DNA of 64,000 nt, taken from the NCBI GenBank assembly GCA_001637315.1, contig LSZA01000006.1, positions 1 through 64,000 of the forward strand, in the 5' to 3' direction. Below are positions 1 to 7,459 of this stretch, piece by piece. The position numbers were made by a program, and so were the translations under genes. The notes beneath the pieces are model-generated. The model did no database searches, had not been told where the DNA came from, and saw nothing but the letters and a program-made list of their open reading frames with translations. Each line of letters begins with the position of its first letter. Within the stretch, counting starts at the first letter, position 1. This DNA comes from Phormidium willei BDU 130791 (lineage in GTDB: Bacteria; Cyanobacteriota; Cyanobacteriia; Cyanobacteriales; Geitlerinemataceae).

Positions 1-9
1 TGGGTTATC

Positions 10-40
10 CCTCTTGCCTTTTGCCTTCTTTTCTAATTCT
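10..40. repeat. pyrimidine-rich CTTGCCTTTTGCCTTC repeat
   Basis: This short C/T-rich stretch just before the first gene recurs in variant form near 45720-45755 and, in reverse complement, near 24080-24120. Such strings are common intergenic filler in filamentous cyanobacteria. It argues that the reading frame of the adjacent glycosyltransferase does not truly begin here. Confidence 0.5.
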
Positions 41-43
41 TCC

Positions 44-982
44 ATGTTTTTTAGTGTTATTATTCCCACCTATAATCGCCTGCCAATCTTACAAAAGTGC
101 CTTCAAGGATTAGCCCAACAACAGATAGCCAAACCCGTAGAACAATACGAAGTTATTGTTATCGATGATGGGTCAAATGACGGAACTTGGGACTGGTTAA
201 CCGACTATCAGCAACAAATGCCACAATTGCGTTGTTTTCGGCAACAAAATGCAGGTCCTGCCGCCGCTCGCAATTTAGGATTAGACCAGGCGAAAGGGGA
301 TACTATTGTCTTTATCGATAGTGACTTAGTGGTCACAGACAGTTTTTTGCAGGCTCATAAAAACGCCTTAACAGGTGGATTTGCCAAACTTGGACATGAG
401 CGTCTCTTTACCTATGGGGCGGTAATTAACACCTGTGATTTCGAGAATCCTACCGCTGAACCCTATAAAGTGACGGACTTTTCAGCCGCCTATTTCGCCA
501 CAGGCAATGTTGCCATTCCTCGCCATCTGTTGGATAAAGTTGGTCACTTTGACACCCGGTTTAAACAGTATGGCTGGGAAGATTTAGAGTTAGGAGTTCG
601 GTTAAAAAAAATCGGCGTCAAACTGATTAAATGTCCCGAAGCCGTGGGCTATCATTGGAATCCTGCTTTTTCCCTAGAGCGATTACCGGCCTTAATTGAG
701 CGGGAACAACAACGAGCCAAAACGGGAGTTTTGTTTTACCAAAAACATCCCACCTGGGAGGTGCGTTTCATGATTCAGATGACCCCCGTCCATCGCGCTC
801 TTTGGGGAGTGTTATCCTGGGGAGGATATTGGAACGAACAGCGTCTGTCGGGGTTGTTGCAATGGCTGATTGAGCGAGGGCGATCGCAACTGGCCCTCGA
901 AATTGCTCGAATTTTCCTAAATTGGTATCATGTTCAGGCTGTACGGGATGCTTACCGACAGCAACACCCGCAAACTGCCTAA
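44..982 (+). CDS. family 2 glycosyltransferase
   Basis: Predicted inverting glycosyltransferase (GT-A fold, GT2) of 312 residues that moves a sugar from a nucleotide donor to an unknown acceptor in the cytoplasm. Visible motifs are the N-terminal [10 protein letters not shown] strand, [10 protein letters not shown] for nucleotide binding, FIDSD as the metal-binding DxD, and [13 protein letters not shown], which resembles the galactosyltransferase C-terminal acceptor motif. The frame is open to a TTG at 14, but that part encodes a pyrimidine-rich intergenic repeat; the ATG at 44 directly precedes the conserved first strand. pcyA follows 29 nt downstream. The substrate cannot be told from sequence. 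Confidence 0.88.
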
Positions 983-1011
983 TTGCCCTAACCTCTCATC
1001 TTAAACCCTAT

Positions 1012-1743
1012 ATGACCTCTTCGGTGCGATCGCAGCAACATCCCCTGATTCAAAAGCTCGCTGATGCAATTGAATCCACATGGAAAACTCACCTAGACCT
1101 TGACCCCTACCATCTCCCCGAGGATTTAGGCTATGTAGAAGGGCGACTCGAAGGCGAAAAACTCGTCATTGAAAATAGCTGTTACCAGTCCCGAGAATTT
1201 CGTAAGATGCACCTGGAACTGGCTAAAGTGGGCCAGAACCTAGACATTCTCCATTGTGTCATGTTTCCCCATCCCACCTATGCGCTGCCCATGTTTGGCA
1301 CCGATTTAGTGGGAGGCCGGGGACAAATCAGTGCGGCGATCGTAGATTTATCCCCCACCACAGAAAATCTAAAACTCTCGCAAGACTATTGCCAAGACTT
1401 AGAGGCTTTACCGCCATTGAACTTCTCTCAAGTGCGGGATTTACCCGACTGGGGCGATATTTTTTCCGATTTCTGTCTCTTCATTCGTCCCGGCGATGAA
1501 ACCGAAGAAGAGCAGTTTTTACAACGGGTGACGGACTATCTAAAAGTTCACTGTCAACGGGCCACTGCCAGCGAGCCAGTTAGCGCGGCGGCGGCGGCTC
1601 AAGTGCGGGCGGGACAGTTGTATTACTGTAACAAACAACGGCAAAATGACAAGACGCGGCGGGTACTGGAAAAAGCCTTTGGCTCCGATTGGGCTGAACG
1701 CTATATGACCTCAGTTCTCTTTGATTTACCGCCTGAAGCCTAG
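1012..1743 (+). CDS. pcyA: phycocyanobilin:ferredoxin oxidoreductase
   Basis: PcyA reduces biliverdin IXalpha by four electrons from ferredoxin to give phycocyanobilin, the chromophore of phycobilisomes and many phytochromes. The 243-residue length fits the family. Glu69, His81 (LHCVMFPHP) and Asp98 (MFGTDLVGG) have the same spacing as the catalytic Glu76, His88 and Asp105 of the Synechocystis enzyme. A longer frame from a TTG at 922 would overlap the preceding gene; the ATG at 1012 gives the usual N-terminus. Identification is strong from these motifs and length. Confidence 0.96.
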
Positions 1744-1797
1744 TTGCTCCTGTGGAGTTTGATTGGCTTATTTTAGCGAAGCCAAACCTAAAAAGTT

Positions 1798-1803
1798 TCC
1801 GGA
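1798..1803 (+). promoter_or_regulatory. TCCGGA box upstream of patX-like gene
   Basis: A TCCGGA hexamer lies 59 nt before the ATG at 1862. In Nostoc/Anabaena, TCCGGA near -35 is the core of the DIF+ motif found at promoters induced early in heterocyst differentiation, and patX genes are reported to be preceded by such motifs. A TAAT stretch at 1823-1826 could form part of a -10 element, but it is a poor match. Six bases can occur by chance, so this is suggestive only. Confidence 0.35.
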
Positions 1804-1861
1804 TCGCGAGGATGCTCTCAAGTAATCAGAAGTAGCAGTATCAATCAAAGGGCTACTTTCG

Positions 1862-2032
1862 ATGAGCATCTATAAAACTCTTTTCCTGTCTAGCCTCCTG
1901 TTAATGGGCTTTGCGGTCAACGTTCAAGCCGAACGGATATCCTCGGACCCCAACTATGACAGCCTGAGTCACGTTTTTTCGGCCGATAGCAACAATGCGG
2001 ATACCGTTCCCCATCGTGGTAGCGGTCGTTAA
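1862..2032 (+). CDS. patX: PatX-like RGSGR secreted signal peptide
   Basis: A 56-residue peptide with a typical signal sequence: basic start (MSIYK), hydrophobic core (TLFLSSLLLMGFAV), and likely cleavage after VQA around residue 23. A short polar region follows and the protein ends exactly in HRGSGR (residues 51-56). RGSGR is the HetR-binding pentapeptide of PatS and HetN. PatX is the related family, described as a short exported peptide with a C-terminal RGSGR, found with HetR in filamentous cyanobacteria including some that form no heterocysts. The gene stands alone between pcyA and crtH, with a TCCGGA box upstream and a strong terminator downstream. hetR is not in this window, so the partner is inferred. 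An inverted repeat, AGTAGC at 1831 and GCTACT at 1852, lies just before the start. Confidence 0.8.
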   Translation: MSIYKTLFLSSLLLMGFAVNVQAERISSDPNYDSLSHVFSADSNNADTVPHRGSGR

Positions 2033-2069
2033 ACGGTAATTCTCCTGCAAGGCTAGGTCGTTAATAGGT

Positions 2070-2112
2070 ATCCGTATTGAAGCACCTGTGCTTTAATGCG
2101 GATGTTTTTTTT
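2070..2112 (+). terminator. intrinsic terminator of patX-like gene
   Basis: A near-perfect 16-bp inverted repeat (ATCCGTATTGAAGCAC paired with GTGCTTTAATGCGGAT, allowing G-U pairs) is followed by G and eight T residues. This is a strong rho-independent terminator 37 nt after the stop codon. It supports the short gene being a real, separately transcribed unit. Confidence 0.9.
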
Positions 2113-2229
2113 GGCAACTATGCTGGCTCGGTGATTGTCCTGAATTTGCCCCCAGCCATTCCCGATCGCCCGTATCCTCCGCTACAGTACAAAGAGATTG
2201 TTTAATATCCTCCGATTAGATCCTTCTCT

Positions 2230-3777
2230 ATGACTGCAACAGCGGCTTCTTCTTCCTCTCAGGGGCGATCGCCCCACGTCTCGTCCCCAGTCTATGATGC
2301 CATTATCATCGGCTCGGGCATTGGCGGCCTCGTCACCGCCAGCCAACTGGCGAGCAAAGGGGCCAAAGTTCTGGTCCTTGAACGCTATCTCATCCCCGGT
2401 GGGAGTGCGGGCTACTTTGAACGCTCAGGCTATCGCTTTGACGTCGGGGCCTCGATGATTTTTGGTTTCGGAGAGCAGGGGACCACCAACCTGCTGACGC
2501 GGGCTTTAGAGGCGGTGAATATGAGCCTAGAGACGATCGCCGATCCGGTCCAAATTCACTATCACCTCCCGAACCAGCTTGACCTGAAAGTTCATCGCCA
2601 TTACGAAGGCTTCATCAGCGAACTCAGTGCCAAGTTCCCCCATGAACGACAAGGAATTCGCCGCTTTTATGATGAATGTTGGCGGATTTTTAATTGTCTA
2701 AACAGCATGGAGTTGCTGTCCCTTGAAGAACCCCGCTATCTAACGCGAGTCTTTTTTCAGCATCCTTTAGCCTGTCTTGGCCTCGTCAAATACCTACCCC
2801 AAAATGTTGGCGATCTTGCCCGCCGCCATATCCAAGACCCAGAATTGCTGAAGTTTATCGATATTGAATGCTATTGCTGGTCGGTGGTTCCGGCGGATCT
2901 CACCCCGGCCATCAATGGCGGTATGGTCTTTAGCGATCGCCATTATGGCGGCATCAACTACCCCAAAGGCGGTGTGGGAACCATTGCCCAGGCCCTGGCT
3001 GATGGTCTCGAAAACGCCGGGGGAGAAATCCGCTACAAAGCCCGCGTCACAGAAATCGTCATGGAGGGCAAACGAGCGGTTGGGGTGCAACTGGCCTCGG
3101 GGGAAACCCTCTATGGCCGTCGTATTGTCTCCAACGCCACTCGCTGGGATACCTTCGAGAAACTCCTGCCGGCGGAGAAGATGCCCGCCTCAGAACGTCG
3201 CTGGCAGACGCGATATCGTAAATCACCGGGATTCTTGAGTTTACATATGGGGGTCGCGGCGGACGTGCTGCCGCCGGCGACGGAATGCCATCATATTATC
3301 CTGGATGATTGGCAAAAGATGGAAACCGCTCAGGGAACTCTGTTTGTCTCGATTCCCACCCTTCTCGATCCCAGTCTCGCTCCGGAGGGCTACCACATTA
3401 TTCATGCCTTTACCCCGGATTGGCTAGAGTCGTGGCAACATCTGCCCCCGGATGAGTATGAACGGCGTAAGGAAGCCGCCGCCTGGGAGATCGTCGATCG
3501 CCTCGAAGCCATTTTCCCGGGGTTAGATGCGGGATTGGACTATTTGGAAGTGGGAACTCCTCGCACTCATCGCCGCTTCCTAGGACGAGATGAGGGGACT
3601 TATGGCCCGATTCCCCGTCACAGACTGCCAGGATTACTGATGATGCCTTTTAACCGCACGGCTGTACCGGGATTGTACTGTGTTGGGGATAGTACCTTTC
3701 CCGGTCAAGGCCTCAATGCTGTGGCCTTTTCCGGCTTCGCTTGTGCGCACCGTATTGCGGTGGATTTAGGAGGTTAA
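2230..3777 (+). CDS. crtH: carotene cis-trans isomerase CrtH (prolycopene isomerase)
   Basis: CrtH/CRTISO converts poly-cis lycopene to all-trans lycopene in carotenoid synthesis and is an FAD-dependent enzyme related to phytoene desaturase CrtI. The 515-residue protein has the N-terminal dinucleotide-binding motif [20 protein letters not shown] (about residues 26-45), a conserved [14 protein letters not shown] segment, [15 protein letters not shown] in the middle, and the C-terminal FAD motif [22 protein letters not shown]. The ATG at 2230 is 117 nt after the patX terminator. A hairpin terminator follows, so it is probably monocistronic. Confidence 0.93.
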
Positions 3778-3813
3778 GGAGATACCAAACGGTTCGTTAG
3801 TCTATCTACAGGA

Positions 3814-3835
3814 GGGGGCGATCGCCCCCTTTTTT
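3814..3835 (+). terminator. intrinsic terminator after crtH
   Basis: A GC-rich palindrome with arms GGGGG and CCCCC around the HIP1 core CGATCG is followed at once by six T residues, 37 nt after the crtH stop. It looks like a rho-independent terminator built on a HIP1 site. Confidence 0.8.
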
Positions 3836-3954
3836 GGGTCAGCATAGGGACGGTCACGAGAATTAATGTCGCCGGGATCACTTCTGCGAGAGGCTTGGCT
3901 CGCCATGGCGGTATGATTTTGTATTAACCCTTGCGTTTAAGGAAATTTCCCTGA

Positions 3955-4695
3955 ATGATCTATTCTCGTCGACTGACTCAAATTAGCTTAGGATTGACTG
4001 TGCCTTTCGTGATCGTGCTCAGTTCCTGTCGTCCTCCTGAAACGGCTGATTCGTCAACTCCAGAGTCGCCACCGAGGGCTGAAGAACCGACGGACTCGCC
4101 GATGAGTCCTGATGATCCGATGGCCCCTCAACCGAGGCCGGGGATGGATCGCCCCGGAATGAATGGCCGGGGAATGCCGATGAATGGGATGTATCTTGGC
4201 CCCGATGATGAGCAGTTTGAATTGCGATTTCTCGATGCGATGATTCTTCATCATCAGGGAGCGGTGGAGATGGCACAGGAAAGTTTGCAGAACTCACAAC
4301 GAGAGGACATTCGTCAACTTTCCCAAGAGATTATTGAGACTCAAAGGGAGGAAATTACTCAGATGCAGGCCTGGCGATCGCAGTGGTATGCGGATGCTCC
4401 TGAGGCCCCGCAGATGTATGATCCTCAACGGTCTCAGACGGTGGAAATGAATAATGGCATGAGGTCGATGCTGAAGATGGAAGTAGATCTCGGTGAGGTG
4501 GATGAGACCTATGATCAGCGGTATGTCAATGCCATGATTGCTCACCATCAAGGGGCGTTGGATATGGCTCGTCAGGTGTTAGAAAACAGCGATCGCCCGG
4601 AAGTCGAAGCGTTCGCCAATGATCTGATTGAAACGCAAATGGCTGAGGTGCAACAGATGCTGGCTTTACAGGAGAGCGGTTATGGGGCGCAATAG
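3955..4695 (+). CDS. DUF305 lipoprotein, methionine-rich
   Basis: A 246-residue exported protein. The N-terminus is a lipoprotein signal: positive start, hydrophobic core, lipobox LSSC near residue 24. After a Pro/Glu linker comes a Met- and Gly-rich patch (about residues 48-80, PGMNGRGMPMNGM) that could bind copper. Two DUF305 units follow, each with a HHQGA motif (MILHHQGAVEMAQ and MIAHHQGALDMAR) and a later E-x-I/L-E-T-Q helix, giving a ferritin-like bundle fold. Family function is unsettled; some members are linked to metal handling. It faces the next gene convergently. Confidence 0.85.
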   Translation: MIYSRRLTQISLGLTVPFVIVLSSCRPPETADSSTPESPPRAEEPTDSPMSPDDPMAPQPRPGMDRPGMNGRGMPMNGMYLGPDDEQFELRFLDAMILHHQGAVEMAQESLQNSQREDIRQLSQEIIETQREEITQMQAWRSQWYADAPEAPQMYDPQRSQTVEMNNGMRSMLKMEVDLGEVDETYDQRYVNAMIAHHQGALDMARQVLENSDRPEVEAFANDLIETQMAEVQQMLALQESGYGAQ

Positions 4696-4805
4696 TTGAG
4701 TGTTGATTGGTTTGGGGAGGGGGGAAGGTGATGCTGTTTTGGTCTGCCCTCGATAGTCTGGGTCTTGATTCACCCATGAACGGTCAACGGTTCACGAGAT
4801 AGGAC

Positions 4806-6419
4806 TTAGCCGAGGCGATACATCCAGCCATCTCGACTACAAATATAAACGGATCCCTCCCAGACAACGGGAGTCGATTCAAAGGCTCCCCCTGGGTTGA
4901 AGTGATCGAGTTTTTCGAGGCTGATGCGGTAGAATTGCCCCCGTCTTCCGGGCAGGGCTAAGGGGTCGTTGGCGGAGGCTAAACTGTAGTTGAGTTGAAA
5001 GAGATAAACGCCATTGTATCCGGCGGAAATGAGGCGATTTCCGTCGGTAAAAATGGGGGTGGAAATGGAAGGACCAACGGGTTCTTTGGCAATGATGATT
5101 GGGGTGTTATATTGCCGTTGTTGGAATGGGCCGGGGACGGTTTCGCCCGTGACTTGGGTCTGACTGCCGAGGTAGAGATAGCCGTCAATGGCATTGGTGG
5201 CAAATAGGGGCGGGGTGTCGGGGGCGCGATACTCGTCGTTGAGGGCGACGGAGCCGGTGATCCCGCCCTGCCAGTCGGCAAAGGGGATGTTTCGGGTGGG
5301 GAGAAACCAGTCGACACAGTCGGGATCGGGTTGGCTTGGGTCGAGTTTATACACGCCTCCTTGGCCGGGAATGCGCTCTCGATCTAGGGTGCTAAATAGT
5401 TTGCCATCTTGGGCGATGCTCAGGGTTCCGTTGAGATCGCCGCCGGAGCGAAATTGCCAGACGATGGTTCGTTGCTTGATGTCGATGCCGTAAATGCGTC
5501 CACCGCCTGAGGCCAGGTAGAGGCGATCGCCCCAGCGGGCGGGGGAGGATTCGGCGACTAAATTGCCTCGATAGAGGGGGATGTCTGCGGGGTCATAGAG
5601 TTGCAGTTCTTGTTGAATGTCGGGGGCAAAAAAGCCATTCTTGGGGCGACGACTTGCGATGCGACTATTGATAAAATAGCCGATGGAGTTTTCACCGGCG
5701 TTAAAGAGGGTTTGTTGGCCGAGGTAGAGGGCTGAACTGTCGTTATCTCGACTGTAACTGTCGGTTTGACGAATGTTTAAACGCCAGAGTTCTTGTCCGG
5801 TACGGCCGGAAATGGCCCGGAAGCTGGGAACGACGGCAGATGAAAGGGATTTGTTGACGCCAAGGCGACTCCCTTGTAGGATGACGATTCGATTGTCGTC
5901 GCTGGCGGTTTCGTCGAGGTACAGGGTGGCGGTTCCTTTGAGAATGTCGTCAAATTGATAACTCCAGACGTCTTGACGGCTCTCTAGGTCGATTTTTCGC
6001 AGTTGCTGGTTGTAGGCGCCGATAATGAGATAGAGGCGACCGCGATCGCGCAGTAGGGTCGGTTGGCCGGTCCAACCGGCTCCACTCCAGCTATAGGCTG
6101 TGCCACCGACGCGGCTGATGCTGCTGCCGAGGTAGAATCGATCCTGGAGTGTTAAGGCGGCGGGGGTTCCTCGGCCATAGTAGCGGCGTTGGTCGTTGCC
6201 GAGATAGGTGGGAATGAGGAGTTGGGTTTCGTTGCTCTCAAGTTGGGGAGATTGGTTGAGAATTTGGTTGACCTGGCGGGTTAGGCGATCGGAGAGGGAG
6301 CTGGGGGTGACTAGGGGGGGCGTCTTTGAGGTTTGGGAGGAGCGCCGTTGAGCGGGTAGCCAGGCTGCAAGTCCGAGAAAAACGGTGTATCGTGTGAGTT
6401 GTCGTCGGGTTAGGGCCAT
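4806..6419 (-). CDS. Tat-exported PQQ-like beta-propeller protein
   Basis: A 537-residue protein with a twin-arginine-type leader (TRRQLTRYTVFLGLAAWLPAQ, starting near residue 4) and then repeated beta-propeller blades of the quinoprotein type, for example LYLASGGGRIYGIDIKQRTIVWQFRSGG and SVYICSRDGWMYRLG at the C-terminus. The family has the fold of PQQ dehydrogenases and BamB, but I cannot see a dehydrogenase active site, so a structural or sensory role in the periplasm is as likely as catalysis. It lies convergent to the DUF305 gene and divergent from the HD gene. Confidence 0.8.
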   Translation of the reverse strand: MALTRRQLTRYTVFLGLAAWLPAQRRSSQTSKTPPLVTPSSLSDRLTRQVNQILNQSPQLESNETQLLIPTYLGNDQRRYYGRGTPAALTLQDRFYLGSSISRVGGTAYSWSGAGWTGQPTLLRDRGRLYLIIGAYNQQLRKIDLESRQDVWSYQFDDILKGTATLYLDETASDDNRIVILQGSRLGVNKSLSSAVVPSFRAISGRTGQELWRLNIRQTDSYSRDNDSSALYLGQQTLFNAGENSIGYFINSRIASRRPKNGFFAPDIQQELQLYDPADIPLYRGNLVAESSPARWGDRLYLASGGGRIYGIDIKQRTIVWQFRSGGDLNGTLSIAQDGKLFSTLDRERIPGQGGVYKLDPSQPDPDCVDWFLPTRNIPFADWQGGITGSVALNDEYRAPDTPPLFATNAIDGYLYLGSQTQVTGETVPGPFQQRQYNTPIIIAKEPVGPSISTPIFTDGNRLISAGYNGVYLFQLNYSLASANDPLALPGRRGQFYRISLEKLDHFNPGGAFESTPVVWEGSVYICSRDGWMYRLG

Positions 6420-6592: not shown

Positions 6593-7459
6593 ATGTTCAA
6601 CGCCACTGAAATTTTAATTCAAGCATTCGTCGAAGAATTACGGGAAGGCTATCATCGAACCTATGGCGGCTATAAGCCCGATTATGCGGATATTATCGCC
6701 TGGGCGGGTGGGATGGCGTTGGAAAATATTGCCAACAGCGATGCCCTTTACCACACGGTAGAACATACCATTGGTGTGGCTCTAGTGGGCCAGGAAATTC
6801 TCCGAGGCAAACATATTCGTGAGGGAGGAATCAGCTGCGAGGATTGGTTGCATTTTATTTTATCGTTGGTCTGTAGTGATATTGGCTATGTCAAAGGTGT
6901 CTGTCGTCGGGATAGCTTGGATGCACATCAGTTTGATTCGGGAACGGGGGAGCTGATTCAACTCGATGCTGGGGCGACGGATGCGAGTTTAGCCCCGTAT
7001 CATGTCGACCGCAGTCAACTGTTTGTGAAGGAACGCTTTCATGGTCACAAGCTCATTGAAGCGCAAGAAATTCAGGAGAATATTGAGTTAACTCGTATTC
7101 TGTCCCCTCAACATCCCGGCTATGAGGATACGTCGGGGTTTCGGGGGTTAACTCGAGCGGCGGATTTAATTGGTCAGCTCAGTGATCCGCGTTATCTCAA
7201 TAAGTTGGGGGCGCTGTATTATGAGTATGAGGAAGTGAGTTATAATGAGAAGCTTGGCTATCGTCATGCGGGGGATTTACGTCAAAGTCATTCTCAACAG
7301 TATTGGTCGTTAATTTATCCGGCGATTGAACCGGCGTTGGAGTATTTAGGCTTGACGCAGGAAGGAAAGCAAATTGTGGCGAATGTTTATGCGAATGTGT
7401 TTGTGGTTGAACATGATAATACTCGCACGACGATGTCTACTCAGTTGGAGCGATCGTAA
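6593..7459 (+). CDS. HD-superfamily metal-dependent phosphohydrolase (Npun_R2479 type)
   Basis: A 288-residue protein of a cyanobacterial HD-domain family. The metal-binding frame is visible as LYHTVEHTIGVALVGQEIL (about residues 51-69) followed by FILSLVCSDIGYVKG, where the usual His-Asp doublet reads Ser-Asp, and a later ITRAADLIGQLSD-like helix (LTRAADLIGQLSDP). The HD fold typically hydrolyses phosphoesters of nucleotides, but the substrate of this family is unknown. The ATG at 6593 has an AGAG-type ribosome site close upstream. It is convergent with the kinase gene 34 nt away. Confidence 0.82.
   Translation: MFNATEILIQAFVEELREGYHRTYGGYKPDYADIIAWAGGMALENIANSDALYHTVEHTIGVALVGQEILRGKHIREGGISCEDWLHFILSLVCSDIGYVKGVCRRDSLDAHQFDSGTGELIQLDAGATDASLAPYHVDRSQLFVKERFHGHKLIEAQEIQENIELTRILSPQHPGYEDTSGFRGLTRAADLIGQLSDPRYLNKLGALYYEYEEVSYNEKLGYRHAGDLRQSHSQQYWSLIYPAIEPALEYLGLTQEGKQIVANVYANVFVVEHDNTRTTMSTQLERS

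Follow-up and report, generated by a model that had tools for sequence, protein, structure and literature searches.

A patX gene with a conserved DIF1-type leader in Phormidium willei BDU 130791, and a second patX in the same genome

PatX of Nostoc is reported to be exported by a Sec signal and then cleaved, outside the cytosol, by the PatP peptidase, export and PatP both being needed; the Nostoc hexapeptide HRGTGR is reported to bind HetR with a Kd of 88 nM and to abolish HetR DNA binding (PMC12756182). Anabaena PatS is described with a C-terminal RGSGR and a DIF1 promoter (PMC7377430; PMC7761841), the role of DIF1 being taken here from the former source. PatS is short, with a precursor presumed to be cleaved in the cytoplasm (PMC12756182). 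For the non-heterocystous filament Leptolyngbya sp. BL0902, PatX and HetR are described together, with patX directly upstream of hetR and a predicted DIF1 promoter (PMC11298460). The role of HetR and PatX in heterocyst-free filaments is called a mystery in that source and left open in PMC12756182, whose authors propose that necridia serve to control filament growth where heterocysts are not formed.

Here, a patX gene (patX1, product PatX1) was analysed in a window, meaning the whole stretch of 64,000 nucleotides. The genome assembly had a size of 4.6 Mb in 171 contigs and was 91.7% complete. The following features were assigned:

1012 to 1743, forward strand: pcyA, phycocyanobilin:ferredoxin oxidoreductase (NCBIfam NF002760, 367.5 bits, cut-off 206), a neighbour outside the system
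1798 to 1803, forward strand: DIF1 motif TCCGGA, first base 64 nt before the ATG (exact motif; leaders of the family)
1822 to 1837, forward strand: leader block GTAATCAGAAGTAGCA, 18 nt after DIF1, putative -10 region and transcript start
1862 to 2032, forward strand: patX (PatX1), 56 aa (NCBIfam NF047413; NG86 dN/dS)
1862 to 1930, forward strand: predicted Sec signal peptide, residues 1-23, expected cut after VQA (by eye from the translation)
2012 to 2029, forward strand: codons of HRGSGR (residues 51-56), the expected HetR-binding hexapeptide (translation; conservation)
2066 to 2112, forward strand: intrinsic terminator, stem 2066-2107 followed by a T run
2230 to 3777, forward strand: crtH-type carotenoid isomerase (TIGR02730, 949.5 bits, cut-off 586.9), a neighbour outside the system

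The PatX1 frame starts with ATG, reads MSIYKTLFLSSLLLMGFAVNVQA followed by ERISSDPNYDSLSHVFSADSNNADTVPHRGSGR and is closed by the stop codon at 2030-2032 (+). A 56-residue frame ending exactly in HRGSGR, as described in the earlier note, is thus present, and its assignment to the patX type was borne out by the curated model NF047413 (heterocyst-inhibiting protein PatX), which was matched with 44.4 bits (E-value 2.1e-11, cut-off 30). Specificity of the model was controlled on 14 genomes: none matched at E<=0.001, and 11/14 matched at a loose E<=1, with 0 above the cut-off. Judged by eye, the N-terminus with Lys, a hydrophobic stretch and V-Q-A appears Sec-like and conserved. Translation of the window in six frames gave a single RG[ST]GR, directly before the PatX1 stop. 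In 150 simulated windows (first-order Markov), RG[ST]GR occurred on average 0.99 times at any position and 0.033 times immediately ahead of a stop; since random windows give about one each, the motif alone is weak evidence for a gene. An RGSGR-coding DNA pattern gave 118 matches in the genome (65 forward, 53 reverse) compared to 131 (72, 59) for the reversed control, and is therefore uninformative by itself. PatX1 was called a real gene because of family score, codon pattern, leader and conservation; 1862-2032 is a genuine patX and a fresh member of a published family.

Like PatX as represented by NF047413, the window protein combines a score above the cut-off, a signal-peptide-like N-terminus, an RGSGR end, a DIF1 leader and HetR in the genome, and no difference in the protein sets it apart. 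It differs in its place beside pcyA instead of hetR and in that the genome has a second, tailed PatX. Compared to Leptolyngbya sp. BL0902, where patX lies directly upstream of hetR, patX1 and hetR are on different contigs here (C6 and C13). The RGSGR end and the DIF1 motif are shared with PatS; whereas PatS is very short and has no export signal, PatX1 has 56 residues and a hydrophobic N-terminus. HetN carries RGSGR inside a long ketoacyl-reductase-like protein, in contrast to the 56 residues of PatX1 with RGSGR at the end and no Pfam family at E<=1.

The DIF1 motif, on which the earlier note was silent, was compared among the PatX1 leaders of the GTDB family (13 profile-found loci and the locus of genome G002). 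TCCGGA was present at -61 to -64 in 12/14; the other two leaders (L013, L015) both have CCCGGA. In 500 shuffles used as placement control, the motif never occurred in more than 1/14 leaders. The 2018 description of PatX reportedly places DIF1 within 69 nt upstream, a distance that includes the 64 nt found for patX1. A block starting with GTA at the position of the putative -10 region was seen in 7/12 PatX1 leaders with TCCGGA and in 12/12 leaders of the second PatX (PatX2, see below). A simple sigma-70 scan gave no site in front of patX1.

The gene was said to have its own strong terminator (noted at 2070-2112), and this was recovered as the stem and T run given above, the fold of 2060-2115 having -22 kcal/mol (z -6.25 versus 200 shuffles). 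By a simple scan of 1-5000, 3 terminator-like sites were found versus a shuffle mean of 6.2; because scan sites were not in excess over shuffles, only the fold and its conservation were counted. The same stem follows PatX1 on the 3' side in 9/11 folded loci, counting the own one (11 of the 13 PatX1 loci were folded), the exceptions being L004 with another strong hairpin and L014 with none.

In a PatX profile search of the GTDB family (14 genomes, own included), 13/14 genomes were above the cut-off, and in the 14th (G002) a shortened PatX1 was read by eye. RGSGR is kept in PatX1 of 14/14 genomes and is the invariant part of the protein; conservation of frame and RGSGR in close relatives, whose absence the earlier note had named as refuting its reading, was thereby observed. 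PatX1 always has 56 aa in seven genomes of the same genus. Among their 21 pairs, NG86 dN/dS of patX1 was 0.038-0.21, indicating purifying selection and ruling out a pseudogene for the window's genus, and differences at codon positions 1/2/3 amounted to 74/28/250. Absence of PatX from G002 was ruled out on reading: a 25-residue PatX1 frame, MRIYICLSQSRSLSIDILPHRGSGR, is present at about 1459-1536 of L220 (G002:C31) with TCCGGA at -61, together with a divergent PatX2. This PatX1, seen in one genome only, has lost the hydrophobic stretch, is as short as a PatS-type peptide and may be in decay.

Within flanks of up to 1.5 kb, pcyA adjoins PatX1 in 9/13 loci and a carotenoid isomerase is included in 6/13. 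The nearest named genomes by PcyA are Phormidium sp. SL48-SHIP (98%), Phormidium sp. OSCR (95%) and Geitlerinema sp. P-1104 (89%). Such Phormidium and Geitlerinema names are used for non-heterocystous filaments, and the lineage is probably non-heterocystous. Searches of viral_contigs, plasmids and phages yielded, at their sensitivity, no confirmed PatX1 relative that would point to a mobile or phage origin; in viral_contigs, 236 stretches fitted a pattern and none was confirmed.

Two further genes of the window were recorded in passing. 3955-4695 (+) encodes a protein with a DUF305 domain and a lipoprotein-like start (CopM metallochaperone model, 107.5 bits, cut-off 90), and 6593-7459 (+) a metalloprotein with an HD domain that falls in the Npun_R2479 family (451.3 bits, cut-off 400). 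Outside the window, the gene order at own C60:3394-4209 plus flanks (L131) is nifU-nifH-PII-PII-nifD, where a pair of PII-type genes separates nifH from nifD, as is the case in anaerobes. Both Sodalinema and Phormidium OSCR are reported to have nifI1I2 (PMC12694226, PMC5061849).

Presence of hetR in the genome had been the main test set by the earlier note. A single full-length copy (303 aa) was found; it scored 266.7 bits against PF03574 and, for a cut-off of 489, 567.7 bits against the HetR equivalog of NCBIfam. Its residues 1-299 could be aligned to solved HetR chains, and residue 223, hand-counted on the alignment, is Arg; R223 is reported to be needed for PatS binding (PMC7476756). Within 420 nt upstream of hetR, no exact TCCGGA or TCCTGA was found. 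Coordinates in three near-complete assemblies of relatives (G007, G011, G012) put distances of over 80 kb between the two patX genes and hetR. Since the genome has hetR and a second patX, patX1 is expected rather than surprising. The window gene itself is unremarkable among patX genes; of more interest are the PatX pair and the variants in relatives, both observed at the level of sequence.

In 291 genomes of the order, PatX was matched at E<=0.001 in 116, HetR in 163 and both in 113 (overlap hand-counted from two tables). PatX-positive genomes without a HetR match numbered 3/116 (G001 and G021, and also G144, whose PatX score is weak), and 50/163 HetR-positive genomes had no PatX match. When 15 hand-picked HetR-positive, model-negative genomes were examined with a wider profile and by eye, PatX-like RGSGR frames were seen in 6 (G002, G015, G017, G018, G040, G053); of four control genomes without HetR, only one was matched, at E 0.52. 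The PatX model thus misses some loci. Published distributions differ as well: one source reports that all HetR-containing cyanobacteria have PatX (PMC7761841), another that patX is missing from 12.0% of 474 genomes in which patP and hetR are present (PMC12756182). HetR was found neither by profile nor by protein search in G001 (Baaleninema simplex PCC 7105 by matching coordinates; two PatX) and G021 (PatX with 11 copies of RGSGR), an absence that is weak because the assemblies are drafts. The gene beside hetR in the own genome encodes a regulator with sigma-54-activator-like matches; at E<=1e-20 it was likewise not found in G001 or G021, compared to 5/7 genomes with a match.

The earlier note had also called for a search of the genome for other RGSGR peptides. 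PatX2 is located outside the window at own C5:26651-26824 (L002:1441-1677, reverse strand) and scores 36 bits, above the PatX cut-off. PatX2 has 78 aa, with HRGSGR internal and followed by a 21-residue tail, RRFQSNHNGLEMGESLISVES. It was read in 14/14 family genomes, one case being weak: 12 matched at E<=0.001 (10 above the cut-off), G006 (L212) was found with a wider profile and G002 (L204) with the same profile at E 0.03. The motif is RGSGR in 10/14, RGGGR in 3 and RGSSGR in 1. In the 12 PatX2 leaders compared (L204 and L212 left out), TCCTGA was found at -63 or -64 in 10 and TCCCGA at -56 in two. TCCGGA occurred at that place in 0/12 PatX2 leaders and TCCTGA in 0/14 PatX1 leaders. We read PatX1 and PatX2 as apparent old duplicates whose leaders have diverged at one base. 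A tentative extension, to which we give somewhat worse than even odds, is that two PatX signals act on one HetR in this family: PatX1, with terminal invariant RGSGR and TCCGGA, and PatX2, with a drifting motif, mostly an RRxF...GES tail, and TCCTGA. The duplicates would be fixed for different versions of the promoter base and might serve separate regulators, cells or conditions, and PatX2 would need an extra cut behind RGSGR in order to act.

Outside the family, 70 further PatX loci were read, namely the best 30 of the order-wide search and 40 chosen regions; in 4/40 of the latter, an RG[STGA]GR frame was absent. In several families, a single genome carries two or three PatX. In family f33, by inference probably Nostocaceae, RGSGR is followed by 3-19 residues in 21/21 loci (L031-L051). 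The description of PatX by a C-terminal RGSGR, adopted in the earlier note, did not hold up, since tailed forms are common and a terminal RGSGR does not define PatX. Coordinates place tailed copies close to hetR in a number of genomes, of which G045, G280, G263 and G112 are examples. Among tailed frames outside the window's family and f33, a hand count with rough automatic starts gave TCCTGA about 60 nt upstream in 15/29 versus TCCGGA in 5, so that the split between promoter variants is sharp in the window's family and no rule elsewhere.

Multi-copy precursors were found in 7/70 loci, with 3, 3, 4, 3, 5, 11 and 4 RGSGR per frame in L052, L053, L055, L056, L079, L092 and L093, respectively, belonging to families f32, f20 and f9. 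L092, with 11 copies, is the locus of G021, the genome in which no HetR was found, and L201 (G040) has two copies. By their sequence, these PatX-like frames recall precursors from which a single signal is released in many copies. In the literature titles and abstracts covered, which did not include the 2018 PatX paper, no description of two PatX classes or of multi-RGSGR precursors was met.

In our preferred reading (probability about 0.7), the patX1 product is an exported, trimmed peptide that blocks the single HetR of the genome. Gene, family, conservation, leader motif, terminator and a HetR with the binding residue come from this analysis; the route of Sec export, trimming and HetR binding was inferred because the protein has the sequence elements that this route needs. 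A DIF1-type promoter would give rise to a short patX1 transcript ending near 2112. By analogy with Nostoc and Anabaena, the 56-residue precursor would leave the cytosol via Sec and, once outside, be cut down to a C-terminal peptide, for instance HRGSGR, which would act on the HetR hood domain in cells of the filament and block DNA binding. Cells expressing patX would thereby restrain HetR in themselves or in neighbours. Filament breakage through dying cells may be the controlled outcome in this lineage, as guessed in the literature.

Reports on other strains bear on this reading. In Leptolyngbya BL0902, effects of patX on expression, namely those of a patX deletion on the transcriptome, are reported to be basically independent of hetR (PMC11298460). 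This counts against a simple transfer of the Nostoc route and favours a rather unlikely alternative, that of a true PatX whose product acts mainly on a target other than HetR in this lineage. The same alternative would fit G001 and G021 with PatX and no HetR found, including the 11-copy precursor of G021, but the absence of hetR from draft assemblies weighs little. Against it stand the presence of HetR in 113 of the 116 PatX-positive genomes of the order, the kept R223 of HetR and the invariance in PatX1 of precisely RGSGR, the HetR ligand.

The co-occurrence of HetR in 113/116 PatX-positive genomes favours the preferred reading, whereas the 3/116 without a HetR match, the 50/163 HetR-positive genomes without a PatX match and the lack of an exact TCCGGA or TCCTGA upstream of hetR speak against it. 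Loss of patX alone is reported to be without phenotype in Anabaena in the absence of nitrogen, which also counts against the preferred reading, and Anabaena PatX is described as cell-autonomous or masked by other regulators (PMC7761841). PatX1 might accordingly be made but contribute little signalling itself, acting only within the producing cell or serving as a redundant backup for PatX2, as the existence of a second PatX would allow. We regard this as improbable: it is PatX1, not PatX2, that keeps RGSGR in 14/14 family genomes, and a mere backup should show the opposite. A chance open frame, for which only the frequency of RG[ST]GR in random sequence could speak (about one in 64 kb, counting all frames), was ruled out by the family score of 2.1e-11, cross-genus conservation, codon pattern, DIF1 leader and terminator.

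The window gene is one more PatX and by itself gives no answer to the role of HetR and PatX in non-heterocystous filaments. A PatX pair with one HetR, differing in tails and promoter variants, makes this question testable in one strain. The multi-RGSGR precursors, if confirmed, would matter more, because one protein could release many copies of one signal.
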